Below the pieces are notes generated by a model. That model searched no databases and had not been told where the DNA came from. It saw only the letters and a program-made list of their open reading frames with translations. A program made the position numbers and the translations under genes. Below are positions 2,638 through 15,595 of a stretch of DNA of 35,530 nt, one piece after another. This stretch comes from Bordetella parapertussis (lineage in GTDB: Bacteria; Pseudomonadota; Gammaproteobacteria; Burkholderiales; SG8-41): positions 1 to 35,530 of the forward strand of contig CAMAYE010000009.1 in assembly GCA_945862135.1 (NCBI GenBank), written 5' to 3'. Position 1 is the stretch's first letter. Each line of letters starts with the position of its first letter.

Positions 2638-3198
2638 ATGACCGACACCATGGGTAAAACGGCAGGGAGCGAGGTGGCAACGCTGGGTGGCGGCTGCTTT
2701 TGGTGCCTGGAAGCGGTATTCGACGGCCTGGACGGCGTCGATACTGTTGAATCCGGCTACTGCGGTGGCCACCTCGACAATCCGACTTACGAAGACATCT
2801 GCGGCGGCGACACCGGCCATGCCGAAGTCGTACGCATCGTCTTTGATCCCGCCGTGGTCAGTTACGCCGATTTGCTGGAAGTGTTTTTTGTCATACACGA
2901 TCCGACTACGCTGAATGCGCAGGGCAATGACATCGGCACACAATACCGCTCGGCGATCTATTTCCATACGCCGCAGCAGCAAGCGACAGCAGAGGCAGTG
3001 ATCAGGAACTTGACTGAGGGGCGCGTTTTTTCACGCCCGATCGTCACCGAAGTGACGCCGGCGCCGCATTTCTACGTCGCTGAGCCTTATCATCAGGAGT
3101 ATTTTGAAAACAACCCGCGGCAGCCGTACTGCCAGTATGTGGTGGCGCCCAAGGTAGCCAAGTTCCGCGCGAAATTTGCCGCGCGCGTGAAGAAGTAG
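2638..3198 (+). CDS. msrA: Peptide-methionine (S)-S-oxide reductase, cytoplasmic
   Basis: This is a second MsrA of 186 residues. It has the GGGCFWC active-site motif (Cys20 nucleophile), GYCGG, DIGTQYRS and the terminal EPYHQEYFENNP block. Unlike the msrA at 863-1486 it has no signal peptide, so it should act in the cytoplasm. A GGGGCAGG ribosome-binding stretch precedes ATG 2638; an ATG at 2650 is a second possible start. It lies 65 nt after fbp on the same strand and may be co-transcribed with it. It converges on the DUF72 gene with a 9-nt gap. The two MsrA copies differ at many positions and are not a recent duplication. Confidence 0.94.
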   Translation: MTDTMGKTAGSEVATLGGGCFWCLEAVFDGLDGVDTVESGYCGGHLDNPTYEDICGGDTGHAEVVRIVFDPAVVSYADLLEVFFVIHDPTTLNAQGNDIGTQYRSAIYFHTPQQQATAEAVIRNLTEGRVFSRPIVTEVTPAPHFYVAEPYHQEYFENNPRQPYCQYVVAPKVAKFRAKFAARVKK

Positions 3199-7718: not shown

Positions 7719-8585
7719 CTAGCGCTCGGGCAGAGGGATGAACTCGGTTTCACCCGGTACCGCAGGAAAACGTTGTTCGCGCCAGCGTGTGCGGGCTTCG
7801 TCGATCATTTCGCGGCTGCTGGCGACAAAATTCCACGAAATATGTCGCTCACCATCCAACGCAGCGCCACCAAAGGCCATGATGCGCGCCGCACCGCGAG
7901 TGTTGACGGTGATGTCGATACCGGCATCAAACACCGCTACGGTGCGCGGAGCAACTGGGTTGCCTGCAACATCGACTTCACCGTCGACGACATAAATCGC
8001 CCGTTCCGCGTATTCCCTGGGCAATACAAATCGGGTCGCGGCGCTTGCTTCAATCGCTGCGTAGAACATTGGTGAAAACGTCCGCACCGGTGCCTGTTGC
8101 CCCCATCCATTACCCGCGATCAGCCGCAATGTCGCACCAGGCAGTTCAATGCGCGGCAGTGTGTCTTTCGGATGATGGGTGAATACCGGTTCGGTCTGTT
8201 CATGGGCCACGGGTAGCGCAATCCATACCTGGATGCCGTGCAGGCCGCGCGTGTTGTTGCGTTCGTCGTCTGGGCTGCGTTCCGAATGCACGATGCCGTT
8301 GCCGGCCGTCATCCAGTTCACGTCGCCGGGGGTAATGCGTTGCACGAAACCCAGGCTGTCGCGGTGCATCAGCGCGCCCTCGAACAGATAGGTCACCGTG
8401 GCCAGCCCGATATGCGGATGCGGCCGCACGTCGATGGCCTGACCCGGGTTGAAACGCACGGGCCCCATGTGATCAAAAAAGATGAAGGGGCCGACGGTGC
8501 GCCGGGCTGCAGCGGGCAACAGGCGACGCACCTCGAAACCGTCGCCGAGGTCTTTGGTATGTGCCTGCAGGGTTTGGGTAATCAC
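7719..8585 (-). CDS. Pirin family protein
   Basis: This is a cupin-fold pirin of about 288 residues. The metal-binding histidine region [10 protein letters not shown]... [17 protein letters not shown] and the following [19 protein letters not shown] block define the pirin N-terminal domain. The PMFYAAIEA and GEVDVAGN regions belong to the C-terminal cupin. Bacterial pirins are iron-binding proteins, some with quercetinase activity or roles in redox regulation. No ATG fits. The frame reaches a TTG at 8642, but that would lie upstream of the promoter-like palindrome, so the GTG at 8585 is preferred. The gene is divergent from the candidate selenoprotein and probably shares its control region. 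Confidence 0.88.
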
Positions 8586-8595
8586 GATGCTGCTG

Positions 8596-8624
8596 ATTAT
8601 AGACGGCAGTCCGCTGTCTATAAT
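8596..8624. promoter_or_regulatory. Palindromic divergent promoter between pirin and the candidate selenoprotein
   Basis: A perfect 9-bp inverted repeat, ATTATAGAC (8596-8604) and GTCTATAAT (8616-8624), is separated by 11 nt. Each arm ends in a perfect TATAAT, one per strand, so the -10 boxes of two divergent promoters seem to be embedded in one operator. Rightward transcription would start near 8631, just before the GGAGG at 8644-8648. Leftward transcription would begin only a few bases before the pirin GTG. The symmetry suggests a dimeric regulator (LysR, MarR or TetR type), but none is encoded beside it. Confidence 0.6.
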
Positions 8625-8654
8625 GATCCGATCTGAAACCAACGGAGGATATTC

Positions 8655-9263
8655 ATGGCCCGCCTGCAGCCCTTACCGATTGATGCTATTCCCGAACTCG
8701 CGGATTCGTGGAAGGTTTATCTCAAGGCTCTGGGTTTTGTGCCCAACAGCGTGCTGATCCTGCAGCGCAAACCGAAACTGGTGAAGGCGCTGGCGGCGAT
8801 GGCCGCCGCGGTCTGGGATCCGGAAGGCGAGGTGCCGGTCAGTCTCAAGCGCCTGATCGCACATATTGCCAGCAAGGCGCACGGCTGCAGTTATTGAATG
8901 GCGCACACTGCCGGGGCGGCGCTCCGGCTGGGCGTGGATGAGCAGAAAATGGAAGCAGTGTGGGAATACCGCAGCAGTCCGCTGTTCAGCGACGCCGAGC
9001 GTGTGGCGCTGGATCTCGCACTGGCCGCGGCCTCACAGCCCAACGACGTGACTGACGAACTGATGGATCGTGCCCTCAAACACTGGAACGAAAACCAGAT
9101 CGTTGAAATCGTCGGGTGCGTGGCGATGTTCGGTTTCCTCAACCGCTGGAATGATTCAATGGCGACGCCGTTGGAGGAAGAGCCGGTCGAAGTCGGTGAA
9201 AAACACCTCGCCAAACTCGGCTGGGAAATCGGAAAGCACGGCGACGGGAAGCACGGCAGCTAG
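8655..9263 (+). CDS. Candidate selenoprotein: AhpD/carboxymuconolactone decarboxylase-like with in-frame UGA (Sec81)
   Basis: Two adjacent in-frame pieces (8655-8894 and 8898-9263) together make one 202-residue AhpD/CMD-like protein. They are interrupted only by TGA at 8895-8897. The junction reads GCSY-U-MAHTAG. Homologues as I remember them have GCxYCxAHT, so the TGA replaces exactly the second cysteine of the CxxC redox motif, giving C78-S-Y-U81 with His84 following. The C-terminal part retains the family block EIVGCVAMFGFLNRWNDSMAT. A hairpin with SECIS geometry lies 12 nt after the TGA. AhpD-like selenoproteins with CxxU are known in other bacteria. The likely role is a thiol/selenol peroxidase or disulfide-exchange activity. 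GGAGG at 8644-8648 supports ATG 8655. A nonsense mutation or sequencing error is the alternative. Confidence 0.78.
8895..8928 (+). promoter_or_regulatory. UGA codon and putative bacterial SECIS hairpin
   Basis: After the TGA (8895-8897) a spacer of 12 nt leads to a hairpin at 8910-8928. Its stem is 8 bp (GCCGGGGC with GCGCUCCGGC, including one G-U pair) around a GGC triloop at 8918-8920. The loop is about 20 nt from the UGA and begins with two G residues. Both match the general rule for bacterial SECIS elements: a loop roughly 16-37 nt from UGA with a G in its first positions. The stem lies inside the coding region and still encodes family-like residues. GC-rich DNA can form such stems by chance. 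Confidence 0.6.
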
Positions 9264-9269
9264 CCGGTT

Positions 9270-9929
9270 TCAGCGCGCGCCGGTTTTTTCGAGCAGCCGG
9301 ATGATCCCGTTGTAACCGTGCCGGCGCGCATGCGCGAGCGGCGTCACGCCGTCGCGGTCGGCGATGCCGGGGTCCGCACCGTGCGCCAGCAGCAGGCGGA
9401 CGATCTCGGTGTGCTTCGGCCCGCCGTCTCCGAGGATGACGGCCTCGATCAGCGCGGTCCAGCCGAGGCGATTGACGTGATTGACATTGATCTTTGTCTT
9501 CAGCAATTCGCGTACCACCTCGACATGGCCGTAGTGTGATGCCGGAATCAATGCGGTGCCGCCGTACTGGTTCAGCGTGTGCACATCGGCGCCGTGTTTG
9601 AGGGTCAGGCGCAGCAGCTCGAGGTGACCGTAAACCGCAGCGACCATGAAGGCGGTGCGGCCCACGGTGTCACGAACATCGGGGCTGGCGCCGGCTTCCA
9701 GCAGAATGCGTGCGGCGTCGAGATGGTTGCCGTAGGCGGCCGCGACCAGCGCAGTACGGCCTGCGTCATCACGCGTCAGCAGTGACGCGCCTTCCTTCAT
9801 CAGGCGCTGTACCGCAGCAGCATCACCGCGGCTGGCGGCAGTAATCAGCGCCTGATCGCGTTCCGGCGATTGCGCCCAAGCCGAAGCGGCGCTCAGCAGC
9901 AGGGCGATGAGCAGTGCGCGGCGCTTCAT
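9270..9929 (-). CDS. Exported ankyrin-repeat protein
   Basis: This 219-residue protein has a cleavable signal peptide (MKRRALLIALLLSAASAWAQ) followed by about five to six ankyrin repeats. Repeat signatures are GRTALVAAAYGNHLDAARILLEAGA, GRTAFMVAAVYGHLELLRL, GGTALIPASHYGHVEVVRELL and DGVTPLAHARRHGYNGIIRLLE. It is probably a periplasmic protein-interaction scaffold; no enzymatic domain is present. Its ATG overlaps the uvrA stop codon in an ATGA configuration, so translation is coupled to uvrA even though the products would act in different compartments. It converges on the candidate selenoprotein with a 6-nt gap. Confidence 0.87.
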   Translation of the reverse strand: MKRRALLIALLLSAASAWAQSPERDQALITAASRGDAAAVQRLMKEGASLLTRDDAGRTALVAAAYGNHLDAARILLEAGASPDVRDTVGRTAFMVAAVYGHLELLRLTLKHGADVHTLNQYGGTALIPASHYGHVEVVRELLKTKINVNHVNRLGWTALIEAVILGDGGPKHTEIVRLLLAHGADPGIADRDGVTPLAHARRHGYNGIIRLLEKTGAR

Positions 9930-12900
9930 TTGCCGCGCTCCCGCAGGAACTCCCCGAGAATGCGCGCGGTGTGTGAGCGCGCAGCTTTTTTGACTACCTC
10001 CGCCGGCGGTCCTTCGGCAACGATGCGTCCGCCGCCGTCGCCACCTTCGGGGCCGAGGTCGATGATCCAGTCGGCTTCGGCCATCACATCAAGGTTGTGT
10101 TCGATCACCACCACGGAATTGCCGGCGTTGACCAGCCGGTGCAGCACATGGATCAGTTTTTCGACATCGGCCATGTGCAGCCCCACCGTCGGTTCATCGA
10201 GCACGTACAAGGTATGGCGCTGCGCACCAGCGCGGCCCGGACGGGCGGCCGCATCGTCGCTGCTGTTGCTGCGCACCTTGGCCAGTTCGGTAACCAGCTT
10301 GATGCGCTGCGCTTCGCCGCCGGACAGTGTCGGGCTCTGCTGGCCCAGTGTCAGGTAACCGAGGCCGACATCCTGCAGCAGGCGCAGCGCGTGATGGATC
10401 TGCGGATGCGCGGCGAAGAAATCGACGGCTTCGTCGATGCTCAGCGCGAGGATGTCGCCGATGGATTTTTCCTTGAACCGCACCGCGAGCGTTTCCGTAT
10501 CAAACCGCGCGCCATTGCAGACATCACAAGGTACTTTGACGTCGGGCAGGAAACTCATTTCGATTTTCTGCACGCCCTGGCCTTCGCAGGCTTCGCAGCG
10601 GCCGCCCTTGGTGTTGAAGGAAAAGCGGCTCGCGGTGTAACCGCGCATGCGTGCTTCCGGCGCTTCGGCGTAAAGGCGGCGGATGGTGTCCCAGAAACCG
10701 ACATAGGTCGCCGGACAGGAACGCGGTGTTTTGCCGATGGGCGTCTGGTCGACTTCAAGCACACGGCCCACTGCATCCCATCCCGCGATCTCCTTGCAGC
10801 CTGTTGTTTTAATTGCTGATTTTGTCTTGTTGCTGACCAGGCGCACGAGATTGGCGTGCAGCACATCGCGCGCCAGCGTCGATTTGCCCGATCCCGAAAC
10901 ACCGGTGACCACCGTCAGCCGGCCCAGCGGCACCCGCGCCTGCACGCGCTGCAGGTTGTGCAAAGCGGCGTCGCGCACGAAGAGTGACGGTGTTTTGGCA
11001 TCGACCTTGCGCGGCGGATACAGCGGATGCTGCAGCGGTTTTGCCAGCAGACGACCCGTCACCGATTGCGGATTGGCCTGCAGTTCGGCGGCGGTGCCGG
11101 CGGCGACCACATAACCGCCCAGCCGTCCGGCGCCGGGGCCGAGATCGATTACATGATCGGCGCGGCGGATGGTGTCTTCATCGTGTTCGACCACGATCAG
11201 CGTGTTGCCCTTGGTCTGCAGCTTGGCCAGCGTGTTGAGCAGGATCTGGTTGTCGCGCGGATGCAGACCGATGGTCGGTTCATCAAGGATGTAGGCGACG
11301 CCGCGCAGATTGGAACCGAGTTGCGCGGCGAGGCGGATGCGCTGCGCTTCGCCGCCGGACAGCGTCGGCGCCGCGCGGTCGAGCGCGAGATAACCGAGCC
11401 CGACCTCATCGAGAAAACTCAGCCGGCTGCGGATTTCGGTGACGATGTCGCGCGCAATTGCCGCTTCACGGCCGCTGAACGAGACATCGGTGAATTCGCC
11501 GGCCAGTTTTGCCACGGGCAACGCGGCCAGTTCGGCGATCGACCGTTTGCGGTAACGCACCGCCAGTGCGGTCGGGTTCAGGCGTTTGCCGGTGCAGGTC
11601 GGGCAGGGCTCATCAACCTCCAGCCAGTTCAGCCACGAATCCAGTACATGTTCTTCGGTGCCGGTTTTTTCGCGTTCCTCGTCCCAGTCCACTTTTTCCA
11701 GTGACAGCCCGGTGCCGAAACAGGTCGCGCACCAGCCGTGTTTGGAGTTGTACGAAAACAGCCGCGGATCCAGTTCCGGGAAACTCTTGTTGCATGACGG
11801 GCAGGCGCGTTTGACTGAATACACGGTTTCGGTGAACTGAATGCGCTTGGCATCCTTTTTTGCCATCGCGTCGGCCAGCGTATCAAGGCCACCCAGCACA
11901 TGCACCACGCCCTTGCCGTGCTCCAGTGCGGCAGCGAGACCGGCGCGCAGTGCGGCTTCGTTCTCCGGTTTGACGCGGATATCTGCGACCGGCAGTTCGA
12001 TGCTGTGTTCCTGGAAGCGTGCGAGGCGTGGCCAAGGCGAGGTCGGAATGAATTCGCCGTCGACCCGCAGATGGGTGTGGCCCTTGCTCGCGGCCCACTT
12101 CGCGAGGTCGGTGTAATAACCTTTGCGATTCACCACCAGCGGCGCGAGCAGGCCGATGCGGTCGTTGCGGCACTCTTTCATGATGCGCGCGGTGATCTGG
12201 TCGATGCTCTGTGGCTCAATCGCGACATCGCAGTCGGGGCAGTATTGCGTGCCCAGCTTGACGTAGAGCAGGCGCAGGAAATGATAAATCTCGGTCAGCG
12301 TTGCTACCGTGCTGCGGCGGCCGCCGCGGCTGGTGCGCTGCTCGATGGCCACCGTCGGCGGGATGCCGTAGATCGCATCCACTTCCGGTCGCGCCGCAGA
12401 CTGCACGAACTGGCGCGCATAGGCATTCAATGATTCGAGGTAGCGGCGCTGGCCTTCGGCAAAGACGATATCGAAGGCCAGCGTCGATTTGCCGCTGCCC
12501 GACACGCCGGTAACGACGGTGAACTTGCCGCGCGGGATGTCGACGCTGATGTTTTTCAGATTGTGTTCGCGCGCGTGGCTGACGCTGATCGAGTTGCCGT
12601 GCAGCGCAACGGCGTGGCGGACCTTGGGAATCGCCGGCGGCACGCCGAGGGAGGCGGCGTAGTCGCGCATCGCCTTCGCGGTGTGGGAGGTCGGGTGCTG
12701 CGTCACTTCATCCGGCGTGCCGGTGCAGACGATCAGGCCGCCGGCATCGCCGCCTTCGGGTCCAAGATCAATGATCCAGTCCGAGGCGCGGATCACGTCG
12801 AGGTTGTGCTCGATGACAATGATCGAATGCCCGGCTAGCAGCAGCTTGTGGAAAGCGCCGAGCAGCTTGCGTACGTCGTCGAAATGCAGGCCGGTGGTCG

Positions 12901-15595
12901 GTTCGTCGAACAGAAACAGCTTGCCCTTGCCGCCCAGCGCATTGCGACCCGCCGCATTACGTCCCGTATATGCGGCTTCGGCGAGGAAGCCCGCGAGTTT
13001 CAGCCGCTGAGCTTCGCCGCCGGACAGCGTCGGTACCGGCTGACCCAGTTTCAGGTAATCGAGGCCGACGTCGACCAGCGGCTGCAGCGCGCGTGCGATA
13101 TCGGGCGCGTAGTTGAAAAAAGCCAGCGCATCGGCCACCGTCAGTTCCAGCACATCGGCAATCGATTTTCCGCCGATGGTGATTTCCAGCACTTCGGCGC
13201 GGTAACGCCGGCCGTCGCAGTCCGGGCAGCGCAGGTAGACGTCGGAGAGGAACTGCATTTCGACATGTTCGAAACCGTTGCCGCTGCAGGTCGGGCAGCG
13301 GCCGGTGCCGGAATTGAAGCTAAAGGTGCCTGCGGTATAGCCACGCGACTGTGCCAGCGGCGCCGACGAATAACGACTGCGGATGGTATCGAAGGCGCCG
13401 ACATAACTCGCCGGATTCGAGCGTGTGGTGCGTCCGATCGACGACTGGTCGACCATCACCACATCGCTGATCTGATCGACGCCGTAAATACTATCGTGCT
13501 TGCCCGGGGCTTCCGTCGGCTGGCCCAGCGCCTTGCGCAGCGCCGCGTACAACACATCCTGCACAAGCGTGGATTTACCCGAACCTGAAACGCCGGTGAT
13601 GCAGACCAGCCGGTCCAGCGGGAAATCGGCGTCGACCATTTTGAGGTTATGTTCGCTGGCGCCGCGGATGCGGATATGCGGTGACTTCGGCGCCGGTGCT
13701 TTGACCACGCGCGGTTGCGACGCATGCAGTTCACCGGCGAGATAACGCCCGGTGACCGAGGTCTTGCTGTCCATCAGCCGTCCCGGTGTATCAAAGGCAA
13801 CGATTTCACCGCCTTTGGAGCCCGGCCCCGGGCCGATGTCGAGCAAACGGTCCGCGGCGAGCATCACCTGCGGATCATGTTCGACCACGACCAGCGAATT
13901 ACCCGCGTCGCGCAGCTTGTGCATGACGCTGATGACGCGGCCCATGTCGCGCGGATGCAAGCCGATGGACGGTTCATCCAATACAAAAAGCGTATTCACC
14001 AGCGAAGTGCCCAGCGCCGTGGTCAGATTGATCCGCTGCACTTCGCCGCCGGAGAGGGTGCGTGATTGACGGTCCAGCGTCAGATAGCCGAGGCCGACCT
14101 GGTTCAGGTAGGCGAGCCGCGTGCGGATTTCACCGAGCAGCATGTCGGTGGCTTCATCGAGCGGCGCCGGCAGCGTCAGCGCATCAAAAAGCGTTTTCGT
14201 GCGTTCGAGCGGCAGCAGCATCACGTCATGCACGGTCAGGCCGGGCAGTTTCTGCAGTTGCTCATCGCTGAATTGCACGCCATGCGGCTTGTAACGTGCG
14301 CGCCGGTGTTCACCCTGTCCCAGTGCGGCTTCGGTGTTTTCCGCGGAGCCGATGCGCCACAGCAGTGCATCGGTTTTCAGGCGCGCGCCGCCGCAGGTCG
14401 TGCATTCGGTATAGGCGCGGTACTTCGACAGCAGCACGCGCACATGCATCTTGTAAGACTTGGTTTCCAGCCACTTGAAGAAACGTGCAACGCCGTACCA
14501 GGTGCTCGGCCAGGACTTGCGCCAGCTTTCCCATTCCGGTTCGCCGTCGAGGACCCAACGCTTTTCTTTCGCCGACAGTTCGCGCCAGGGTTTGTCGACC
14601 GGAATGCCGCGCAGCCGCGCGTATTTCATCAGATCGTCCTGGCATTCCTTGTTCGACGGTGTTTGCCACGGTTTCACCGCGCCATCGCGCAGCGATTTGG
14701 ATTCATCCGGCACCACCAGCCCGAAATCGAGCCCGATCACCCGGCCGAAACCGCGGCAGGTGTCGCAGGCGCCCATCGGCGAATTGAAGGAGAACAGGCT
14801 CGGATTCGGTTCGGCGTAGTGGATATCGCATTCAGCGCAATGCAAATCGGTGGAATATTTCCACACCGTGCCGCTGCTGGCATTGGCGTCATCGGCGGCG
14901 AGCACATGCACATTGATGCGGCCCTGGCCGACTTTGATTGCGGCTTCCAGTGCCTCAACGACACGGCCGCGTTCGGCATTGCCCATGCGCAGCCGGTCCT
15001 GCACCACTTCAAAACCGTTTTTGTCTTCACTGAGAAAGCGCGTGTAACCCTGGGCGCCGAGCAGCGCCTTCACTTCATCTGCCTTGAAGTTGGCGGGCAC
15101 CGGCACCGGAAAGGCAATCGCCAGCCGCGGATCACCATCGGCTTTTGCGCGGGCCTGCAATGCATCGAATATGGATTGCGGCGTGTCCTGCGTCACCTTC
15201 GCACCGCAGCCTTTGCAGTGCAGATGCGCCGCGCGCGCGAACAGCAGTTTCAGATGATCGTTGAGCTCCGTCATCGTGCCCACGGTCGAGCGCGAGGTAC
15301 GCACCGGATTGACCTGATCGATGGCGATAGCCGGCGGGATGCCGTCGATGGAATCGACCTGCGGCCGGTCCTGGCGGTCGAGGAACTGCCGCGCATAGGG
15401 CGAGAAGGTTTCGACGTAACGGCGCTGGCCTTCGGCATACAGCGTGTCGAATACCAGCGACGATTTGCCGCTGCCGGAAACACCGGTGACCACCACCAGT
15501 TCGTTCAGCGGTACATCCAGAGACAGATTTTTAAGGTTGTTCTGGCGTGCGCCGCGGATGGCGATGTGGTCGCGGTCGTGTTCGGGAATATCCAT
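9926..15595 (-). CDS. uvrA: Double-length tandem UvrA (excinuclease ABC subunit A)
   Basis: This 1889-residue protein is about twice the usual UvrA length (~940) and consists of two complete UvrA copies. Walker A motifs GVSGSGKS occur near residues 38-45, ~668, ~1030 and ~1565. LSGGE signatures lie near 513, 858, 1413 and 1758, so there are four ABC nucleotide-binding sites instead of two. Both copies keep the zinc-finger cysteine pairs (for example CPTCSGNG...CPDCDG and CEACEGQG...CDVCNG) and the UvrB-binding region. UvrA loads UvrB at DNA lesions in nucleotide excision repair and normally works as a dimer, so this chain could be a covalent pseudo-dimer. The copies differ clearly in sequence. 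The stop overlaps the ankyrin ATG. A second, standard uvrA elsewhere in the genome is likely. Confidence 0.92.
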   Translation of the reverse strand: MDIPEHDRDHIAIRGARQNNLKNLSLDVPLNELVVVTGVSGSGKSSLVFDTLYAEGQRRYVETFSPYARQFLDRQDRPQVDSIDGIPPAIAIDQVNPVRTSRSTVGTMTELNDHLKLLFARAAHLHCKGCGAKVTQDTPQSIFDALQARAKADGDPRLAIAFPVPVPANFKADEVKALLGAQGYTRFLSEDKNGFEVVQDRLRMGNAERGRVVEALEAAIKVGQGRINVHVLAADDANASSGTVWKYSTDLHCAECDIHYAEPNPSLFSFNSPMGACDTCRGFGRVIGLDFGLVVPDESKSLRDGAVKPWQTPSNKECQDDLMKYARLRGIPVDKPWRELSAKEKRWVLDGEPEWESWRKSWPSTWYGVARFFKWLETKSYKMHVRVLLSKYRAYTECTTCGGARLKTDALLWRIGSAENTEAALGQGEHRRARYKPHGVQFSDEQLQKLPGLTVHDVMLLPLERTKTLFDALTLPAPLDEATDMLLGEIRTRLAYLNQVGLGYLTLDRQSRTLSGGEVQRINLTTALGTSLVNTLFVLDEPSIGLHPRDMGRVISVMHKLRDAGNSLVVVEHDPQVMLAADRLLDIGPGPGSKGGEIVAFDTPGRLMDSKTSVTGRYLAGELHASQPRVVKAPAPKSPHIRIRGASEHNLKMVDADFPLDRLVCITGVSGSGKSTLVQDVLYAALRKALGQPTEAPGKHDSIYGVDQISDVVMVDQSSIGRTTRSNPASYVGAFDTIRSRYSSAPLAQSRGYTAGTFSFNSGTGRCPTCSGNGFEHVEMQFLSDVYLRCPDCDGRRYRAEVLEITIGGKSIADVLELTVADALAFFNYAPDIARALQPLVDVGLDYLKLGQPVPTLSGGEAQRLKLAGFLAEAAYTGRNAAGRNALGGKGKLFLFDEPTTGLHFDDVRKLLGAFHKLLLAGHSIIVIEHNLDVIRASDWIIDLGPEGGDAGGLIVCTGTPDEVTQHPTSHTAKAMRDYAASLGVPPAIPKVRHAVALHGNSISVSHAREHNLKNISVDIPRGKFTVVTGVSGSGKSTLAFDIVFAEGQRRYLESLNAYARQFVQSAARPEVDAIYGIPPTVAIEQRTSRGGRRSTVATLTEIYHFLRLLYVKLGTQYCPDCDVAIEPQSIDQITARIMKECRNDRIGLLAPLVVNRKGYYTDLAKWAASKGHTHLRVDGEFIPTSPWPRLARFQEHSIELPVADIRVKPENEAALRAGLAAALEHGKGVVHVLGGLDTLADAMAKKDAKRIQFTETVYSVKRACPSCNKSFPELDPRLFSYNSKHGWCATCFGTGLSLEKVDWDEEREKTGTEEHVLDSWLNWLEVDEPCPTCTGKRLNPTALAVRYRKRSIAELAALPVAKLAGEFTDVSFSGREAAIARDIVTEIRSRLSFLDEVGLGYLALDRAAPTLSGGEAQRIRLAAQLGSNLRGVAYILDEPTIGLHPRDNQILLNTLAKLQTKGNTLIVVEHDEDTIRRADHVIDLGPGAGRLGGYVVAAGTAAELQANPQSVTGRLLAKPLQHPLYPPRKVDAKTPSLFVRDAALHNLQRVQARVPLGRLTVVTGVSGSGKSTLARDVLHANLVRLVSNKTKSAIKTTGCKEIAGWDAVGRVLEVDQTPIGKTPRSCPATYVGFWDTIRRLYAEAPEARMRGYTASRFSFNTKGGRCEACEGQGVQKIEMSFLPDVKVPCDVCNGARFDTETLAVRFKEKSIGDILALSIDEAVDFFAAHPQIHHALRLLQDVGLGYLTLGQQSPTLSGGEAQRIKLVTELAKVRSNSSDDAAARPGRAGAQRHTLYVLDEPTVGLHMADVEKLIHVLHRLVNAGNSVVVIEHNLDVMAEADWIIDLGPEGGDGGGRIVAEGPPAEVVKKAARSHTARILGEFLRERGK

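Follow-up and report, generated by a model that had tools for sequence, protein, structure and literature searches.

Selenoproteins with a CxxU motif from the AhpD-like (COG2128 / TIGR01926) and CMD-domain (PF02627) groups were reported in the Sargasso Sea and GOS surveys of 2005 and 2008 (PMC1088965, PMC2398784), and the same AhpD-like/CMD selenoproteins appear in the list of a 2026 review (PMC13188914). That review describes clustering of Prx-like genes with AhpD-like genes and does not mention clustering with PrdB-like genes. In the open-licence literature we found no paper on an AhpD/PrdB selenoprotein pair or on AhpD-like selenoproteins of Burkholderiales.

Here we analyze a gene in a 35,530-nucleotide stretch of DNA (the window, taken at its full length) from a draft Burkholderiales MAG (88% complete, 310 contigs). 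Judging from the sequence and its homologs, the gene has an in-frame stop codon that is almost certainly decoded as selenocysteine (Sec) in the active site of a small redox enzyme, one shared by many related bacteria. A first-pass annotation of the locus had proposed a selenoprotein of the AhpD/CMD family and correctly stated that AhpD-like selenoproteins occur elsewhere. It had also suggested that this instance may be undescribed; the kind is already known, as CxxU proteins of the AhpD-like/CMD type have been catalogued since 2005.

One frame, one domain and a Bmp8-like motif

Reading positions 8655-9260 of the window gives MARLQP...AHGCSY-U81-MAHTAG...KHGS, with the sole in-frame TGA at codon 81 (Table 1). 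The first-pass annotation had described two in-frame halves of one protein split only by a TGA at the second cysteine of the redox motif, and this is borne out by the translation and by homologs that have TGC or TGT at the same place. C78 (codon 8886-8888), position 81 and H84 are invariant in homolog sets A1 and A3. The frame had also been called unbroken and its halves conserved-looking. Indeed, Pfam CMD (PF02627) is matched as a single domain that runs across the TGA (residues 40-122, E 2.9e-11), and its score of 43.7 bits against a gathering cut-off of 23 places the protein in the CMD family. Ten pairs of sequences were compared, and dN/dS came to ~0.02-0.36 upstream as well as downstream of the TGA; both halves of the protein are under purifying selection. 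The chance of 121 open codons at this base composition is P ~0.02; the open frame by itself is weak evidence, and it is conservation that makes the case.

Table 1. Features of the locus and of the related cluster on another contig of the same genome. Locations refer to the window unless a contig is named.
Feature	Location	Strand	Detail or basis
Predicted CxxU selenoprotein CDS, 202 aa, read through TGA	8655-9263	+	Stop TAG 9261-9263
In-frame TGA, putative Sec81	8895-8897	+	Translation and homolog codon counts
Redox motif C78-S-Y-U81-M-A-H84 (CxxUxxH)	8886-8906	+	Invariance in homologs, Bmp8 alignment
GGAGGA, Shine-Dalgarno-like, likely ribosome-binding site	8644-8649	+	5 nt upstream of ATG, read from the sequence
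SECIS-like stem-loop GCCGGGG-CGGCG-CTCCGGC	8910-8928	+	7-bp stem, loop 8917-8921, begins 12 nt past UGA
Pirin-family gene, divergent (PF02678 + PF05726)	7719-8642	-	Pfam domains
PrdB/GrdB-like gene with in-frame TGA (PVUPNCTC), between TetR and DXS	L167 (contig C102) 4932-6131	+	
Cys paralog of the window protein	L167 (contig C102) 3207-3797		
ArsS	L167 (contig C102) 2012-2995		

The predicted structure (pLDDT 93) has an AhpD-like fold, most similar to those of Bmp8 and of AhpD-like proteins. Among solved relatives Bmp8 stands well ahead of all others, both by fold (Z 25.7, with 184 residues aligned at 1.6 A; next best Z 20.0) and by sequence, where the profile search against solved proteins gave 148.7 bits for Bmp8 and 58.4 for the next. 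Bmp8 (PDB 6ohi and 6ohj) is a tetrabromopyrrole debrominase. The CxxCxxH spacing of Bmp8 (CMYCKSH) aligns with CxxUxxH here, whereas the AhpD-like structures 2prr, 2gmy and PA0269 have CxxCxxxH, so that the motif of the window protein is one residue shorter. The proposed family thus stands as far as the CMD domain and the AhpD-like fold are concerned, but "AhpD" is a loose name for a protein with the motif of Bmp8. The protein falls under the cut-off of TIGR01926 (69.1 vs 81.8) and far under those of the NCBIfam (seleno)protein families NF053654 (68.2 vs 310) and NF041238 (26.6 vs 175).

The likeness to Bmp8 raises the question of whether the protein might be a Sec version of a Bmp8-like reductive dehalogenase, in which a selenol-thiol pair would strip halogen from an organic substrate, as proposed for deiodinases. 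The profile and fold scores and the shared motif spacing all point in this direction. However, Bmp8 is only ~34-37% identical to the Sec forms, and in the tree its long branch falls outside the Sec clade, a placement that is itself unsure as long branches are, and among the neighbors examined no halogenation-related gene was seen. In view of the low identity and the separate branch, debromination is offered as a hypothesis and not as an assignment, and we consider it quite improbable.

A stem-loop conserved only in TGA genes

Among 58 distinct TGA regions, all seven pairs of the stem that follows the TGA are kept in 48 and six pairs in another 9, while no more than five are kept in any of 51 Cys regions. 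Three of the stem pairs have changed on both sides, chiefly from C-G to U-A; in the C-G to U-A case Arg (CGG) becomes Gln (CAG), together with a silent Ala change (GCC to GCT). The covariation score of the stem, 0.225, was not reached in any of 500 shuffles or in any slid register, and dS over the stem codons is 0-0.5 compared to 0.45-1.5 in the rest of the gene. Thus, as is characteristic of bacterial selenoprotein genes, a SECIS-like stem follows the UGA and is conserved as RNA, and the Cys genes are without it. On this comparative evidence, the stem-loop would direct recoding of the UGA. In a whole-genome scan with a model of the element, its own site scored E 1e-13 and the next match 0.04; this model, which was built from the present gene family and would overlook SECIS elements of other kinds, recognized no second strong copy in the genome.

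These data also bear on whether the locus holds two separately translated genes, with a real stop and a second half that starts at the ATG right after it. The ATG lies directly 3' of the TGA, which makes coupled reinitiation possible in principle. Yet such a split would run through the redox motif as well as the CMD domain, the Cys homologs are each a single continuous protein, and homologs often have a residue other than Met (V, Q, K, E or T) immediately after position 81. Together with a stem-loop that is kept with covariation in TGA genes only, this leaves two genes a very unlikely explanation.

TGA alternates with cysteine codons

In 138 homologous sequences, a count that takes in some near-duplicate loci, codon 81 is TGA in 84, TGC in 48 and TGT in 6, and there is no other codon. 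The in-frame UGA therefore aligns with Cys of homologs, as expected of a bacterial selenoprotein. A close homolog (54-97% identity) with an internal TGA is present in 30 of 61 genomes of the same genus, family and order. The TGA is kept in four further genomes of the genus, where protein identity is 95-97%, and an identical TGA occurs in independently assembled genomes of several families. In a scan of named genomes, the family turned up in Betaproteobacteria/Burkholderiales MAGs; forms with Cys were seen in Hyphomicrobiales, Polaromonas, Variovorax and other taxa. A tree built from 110 sequences groups the Sec forms together inside a wider set of Cys forms; 2 changes suffice, compared to 36 with shuffled labels.

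Metagenomic data and an in-frame stop could indicate a pseudogene or a TGC misread as TGA, but the recurrence of the TGA in independent assemblies from several families and the purifying selection on both sides of it make this exceedingly improbable, and the four genus genomes with TGA at 95-97% identity exclude a misread TGC. Both the two-gene split and the pseudogene or error readings are already contradicted by the comparative evidence.

Many of the relatives also hold distant TGA-bearing homologs. The source genome itself has a distant CMD-family frame (contig C166:5555-6004, + strand) with one TGA in a CGYU motif, likely another CxxU selenoprotein.

The genome encodes selenocysteine machinery

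The first-pass annotation had named selA, selB and selC as the genes to look for. In the same draft genome, contig C103 carries selA (1.5e-167), selB (3.4e-123) and a tRNA-Sec with anticodon TCA (selC); because the genome is a draft MAG, this contig is tied to the window by binning alone. In addition, contig C170 encodes SelD, which is a selenoprotein itself with the motif GGGUGCK. The genome therefore has selA, selB, selC and selD, the full complement expected where selenoproteins are made. Most relatives in the genus carry both the TGA gene and sel genes. More broadly, 29 of the 30 genomes that have the TGA form contain selA, as against 12 of the 31 that lack this form (Fisher p 1e-6, a value that is merely a guide, as the genomes are related). 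The TGA form without a detected selA was seen in G009 (84% complete). Decoding of the UGA as some other amino acid, or chance readthrough, has nothing in its favor beyond readthrough itself and next to no likelihood, given that Cys is the only replacement, that tRNA-Sec, SelA, SelB and SelD are present and that a SECIS-like element lies downstream.

Codon alternation, stem-loop covariation and the sel genes thus all support the selenoprotein reading put forward in the first-pass annotation. The best explanation, with its parts taken jointly, is an AhpD-like/CMD-fold selenoprotein in which UGA 81 is recoded via the stem-loop and which acts as a CxxU selenol-thiol oxidoreductase; we put its probability at about 0.93.

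Genomic neighborhood

The gene had been described as paired with pirin. The pairing is real in close relatives: of 80 named loci, 17 have a divergent pirin gene next to the homolog; every one of these carries the TGA form, and they come from several lineages. At this frequency pirin is not a general partner, and we rejected it as a general functional one. The pirin-family gene in the window probably starts a little further downstream than the TTG listed for it. In one relative (L055) two Sec AhpD-like genes stand in tandem beside pirin (1625-2209 and from 2259), and in other relatives the pirin-uvrA locus has one Sec AhpD-like subtype or the other. The window also contains a very long UvrA-like frame (9926-15595, - strand, 1889 aa), apparently two fused UvrA units, and two MsrA-like genes with GCFWC, that is, Cys and not Sec (863-1486, - strand, and 2638-3198, + strand). 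An Rfam search of the window gave no match and a tRNA search of it found none.

At about ten other loci, the Sec gene directly adjoins a PrdB/GrdB-like gene that has its own in-frame TGA (PVUPNCTC, UxxC). These loci often have TetR upstream, ArsS and a Cys paralog nearby, and DXS downstream. In the source genome, contig C102 keeps ArsS, the Cys paralog, TetR, the PrdB-like gene and DXS as a group but lacks the Sec gene, whose place is beside pirin in the window. By its sequence, the PrdB/GrdB-like gene on C102 is predicted to encode a second selenoprotein of this genome. Since it is on a different contig, a partnership with the Sec gene is not in cis here; relocation or differential paralog loss would both explain the separation.

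An AhpC/TSA-type gene lies upstream of a few homologs, mostly Cys forms, and none was seen beside the window gene. At four loci with Cys homologs (L085, L102, L106 and L123), TetR and an AhpC/TSA-type redox gene precede on the same strand. Such neighbors hint that the Cys branch may work with a peroxiredoxin.

Proposed mechanism and substrates

We propose that SelB and Sec-tRNA(Sec) recode the UGA at codon 81. Based on fold and motif, Sec81 would be the likely nucleophile that attacks an oxidized substrate, because it occupies the place of the second Cys in CxxC. Cys78 would then act as the resolving thiol on the intermediate, assisted by His84 as the likely acid/base, and a thiol system would presumably re-reduce the protein. 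The most likely reaction, as far as the fold alone can suggest a substrate, is the two-electron reduction, driven by thiol/selenol, of a peroxide or an oxidized partner protein. The partner could be the PrdB-like selenoprotein, for example, and an organohalide is a further candidate substrate. In relatives with both genes adjacent, recycling of the PrdB/GrdB-like partner is a plausible role. The more specific proposals, a natural Sec-dependent Bmp8-type reductive dehalogenase or a dedicated selenol reductant of a PrdB/GrdB-like selenoprotein reductase, are unlikely even when taken together. If the first were true, the enzyme would be the counterpart in bacteria of the selenocysteine deiodinases, built on a fold unrelated to theirs.

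Comparison with known systems

With this analysis, uncultured Burkholderiales gain a well-supported subfamily of selenoproteins, whose genes ordinary gene callers would probably split. Close Sec/Cys pairs within it allow the contribution of selenium to this fold to be tested directly. By description, the subfamily resembles the AhpD-like/CMD selenoproteins of the Sargasso Sea and GOS surveys in fold family, CxxU motif, Cys homologs and a predicted bacterial SECIS. The points contributed here are the CxxUxxH motif, shorter than in AhpD-like structures and common to Bmp8, the abutting second selenoprotein gene of PrdB/GrdB-like (UxxC) type in several relatives, and an adjacency to pirin that extends to several lineages without being general. 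For a selenoprotein group on record since 2005, the Bmp8-like motif and, in relatives, the PrdB-like neighbor point to substrates that can be tested. Solved proteins of the AhpD and AhpD-like type (M. tuberculosis AhpD 1knc, PA0269 and 2prr) share the fold and a two-residue redox motif with the window protein, but at Z 11.7-20 they are more distant from it than Bmp8, which also has a similar length and differs in using Cys instead of Sec.
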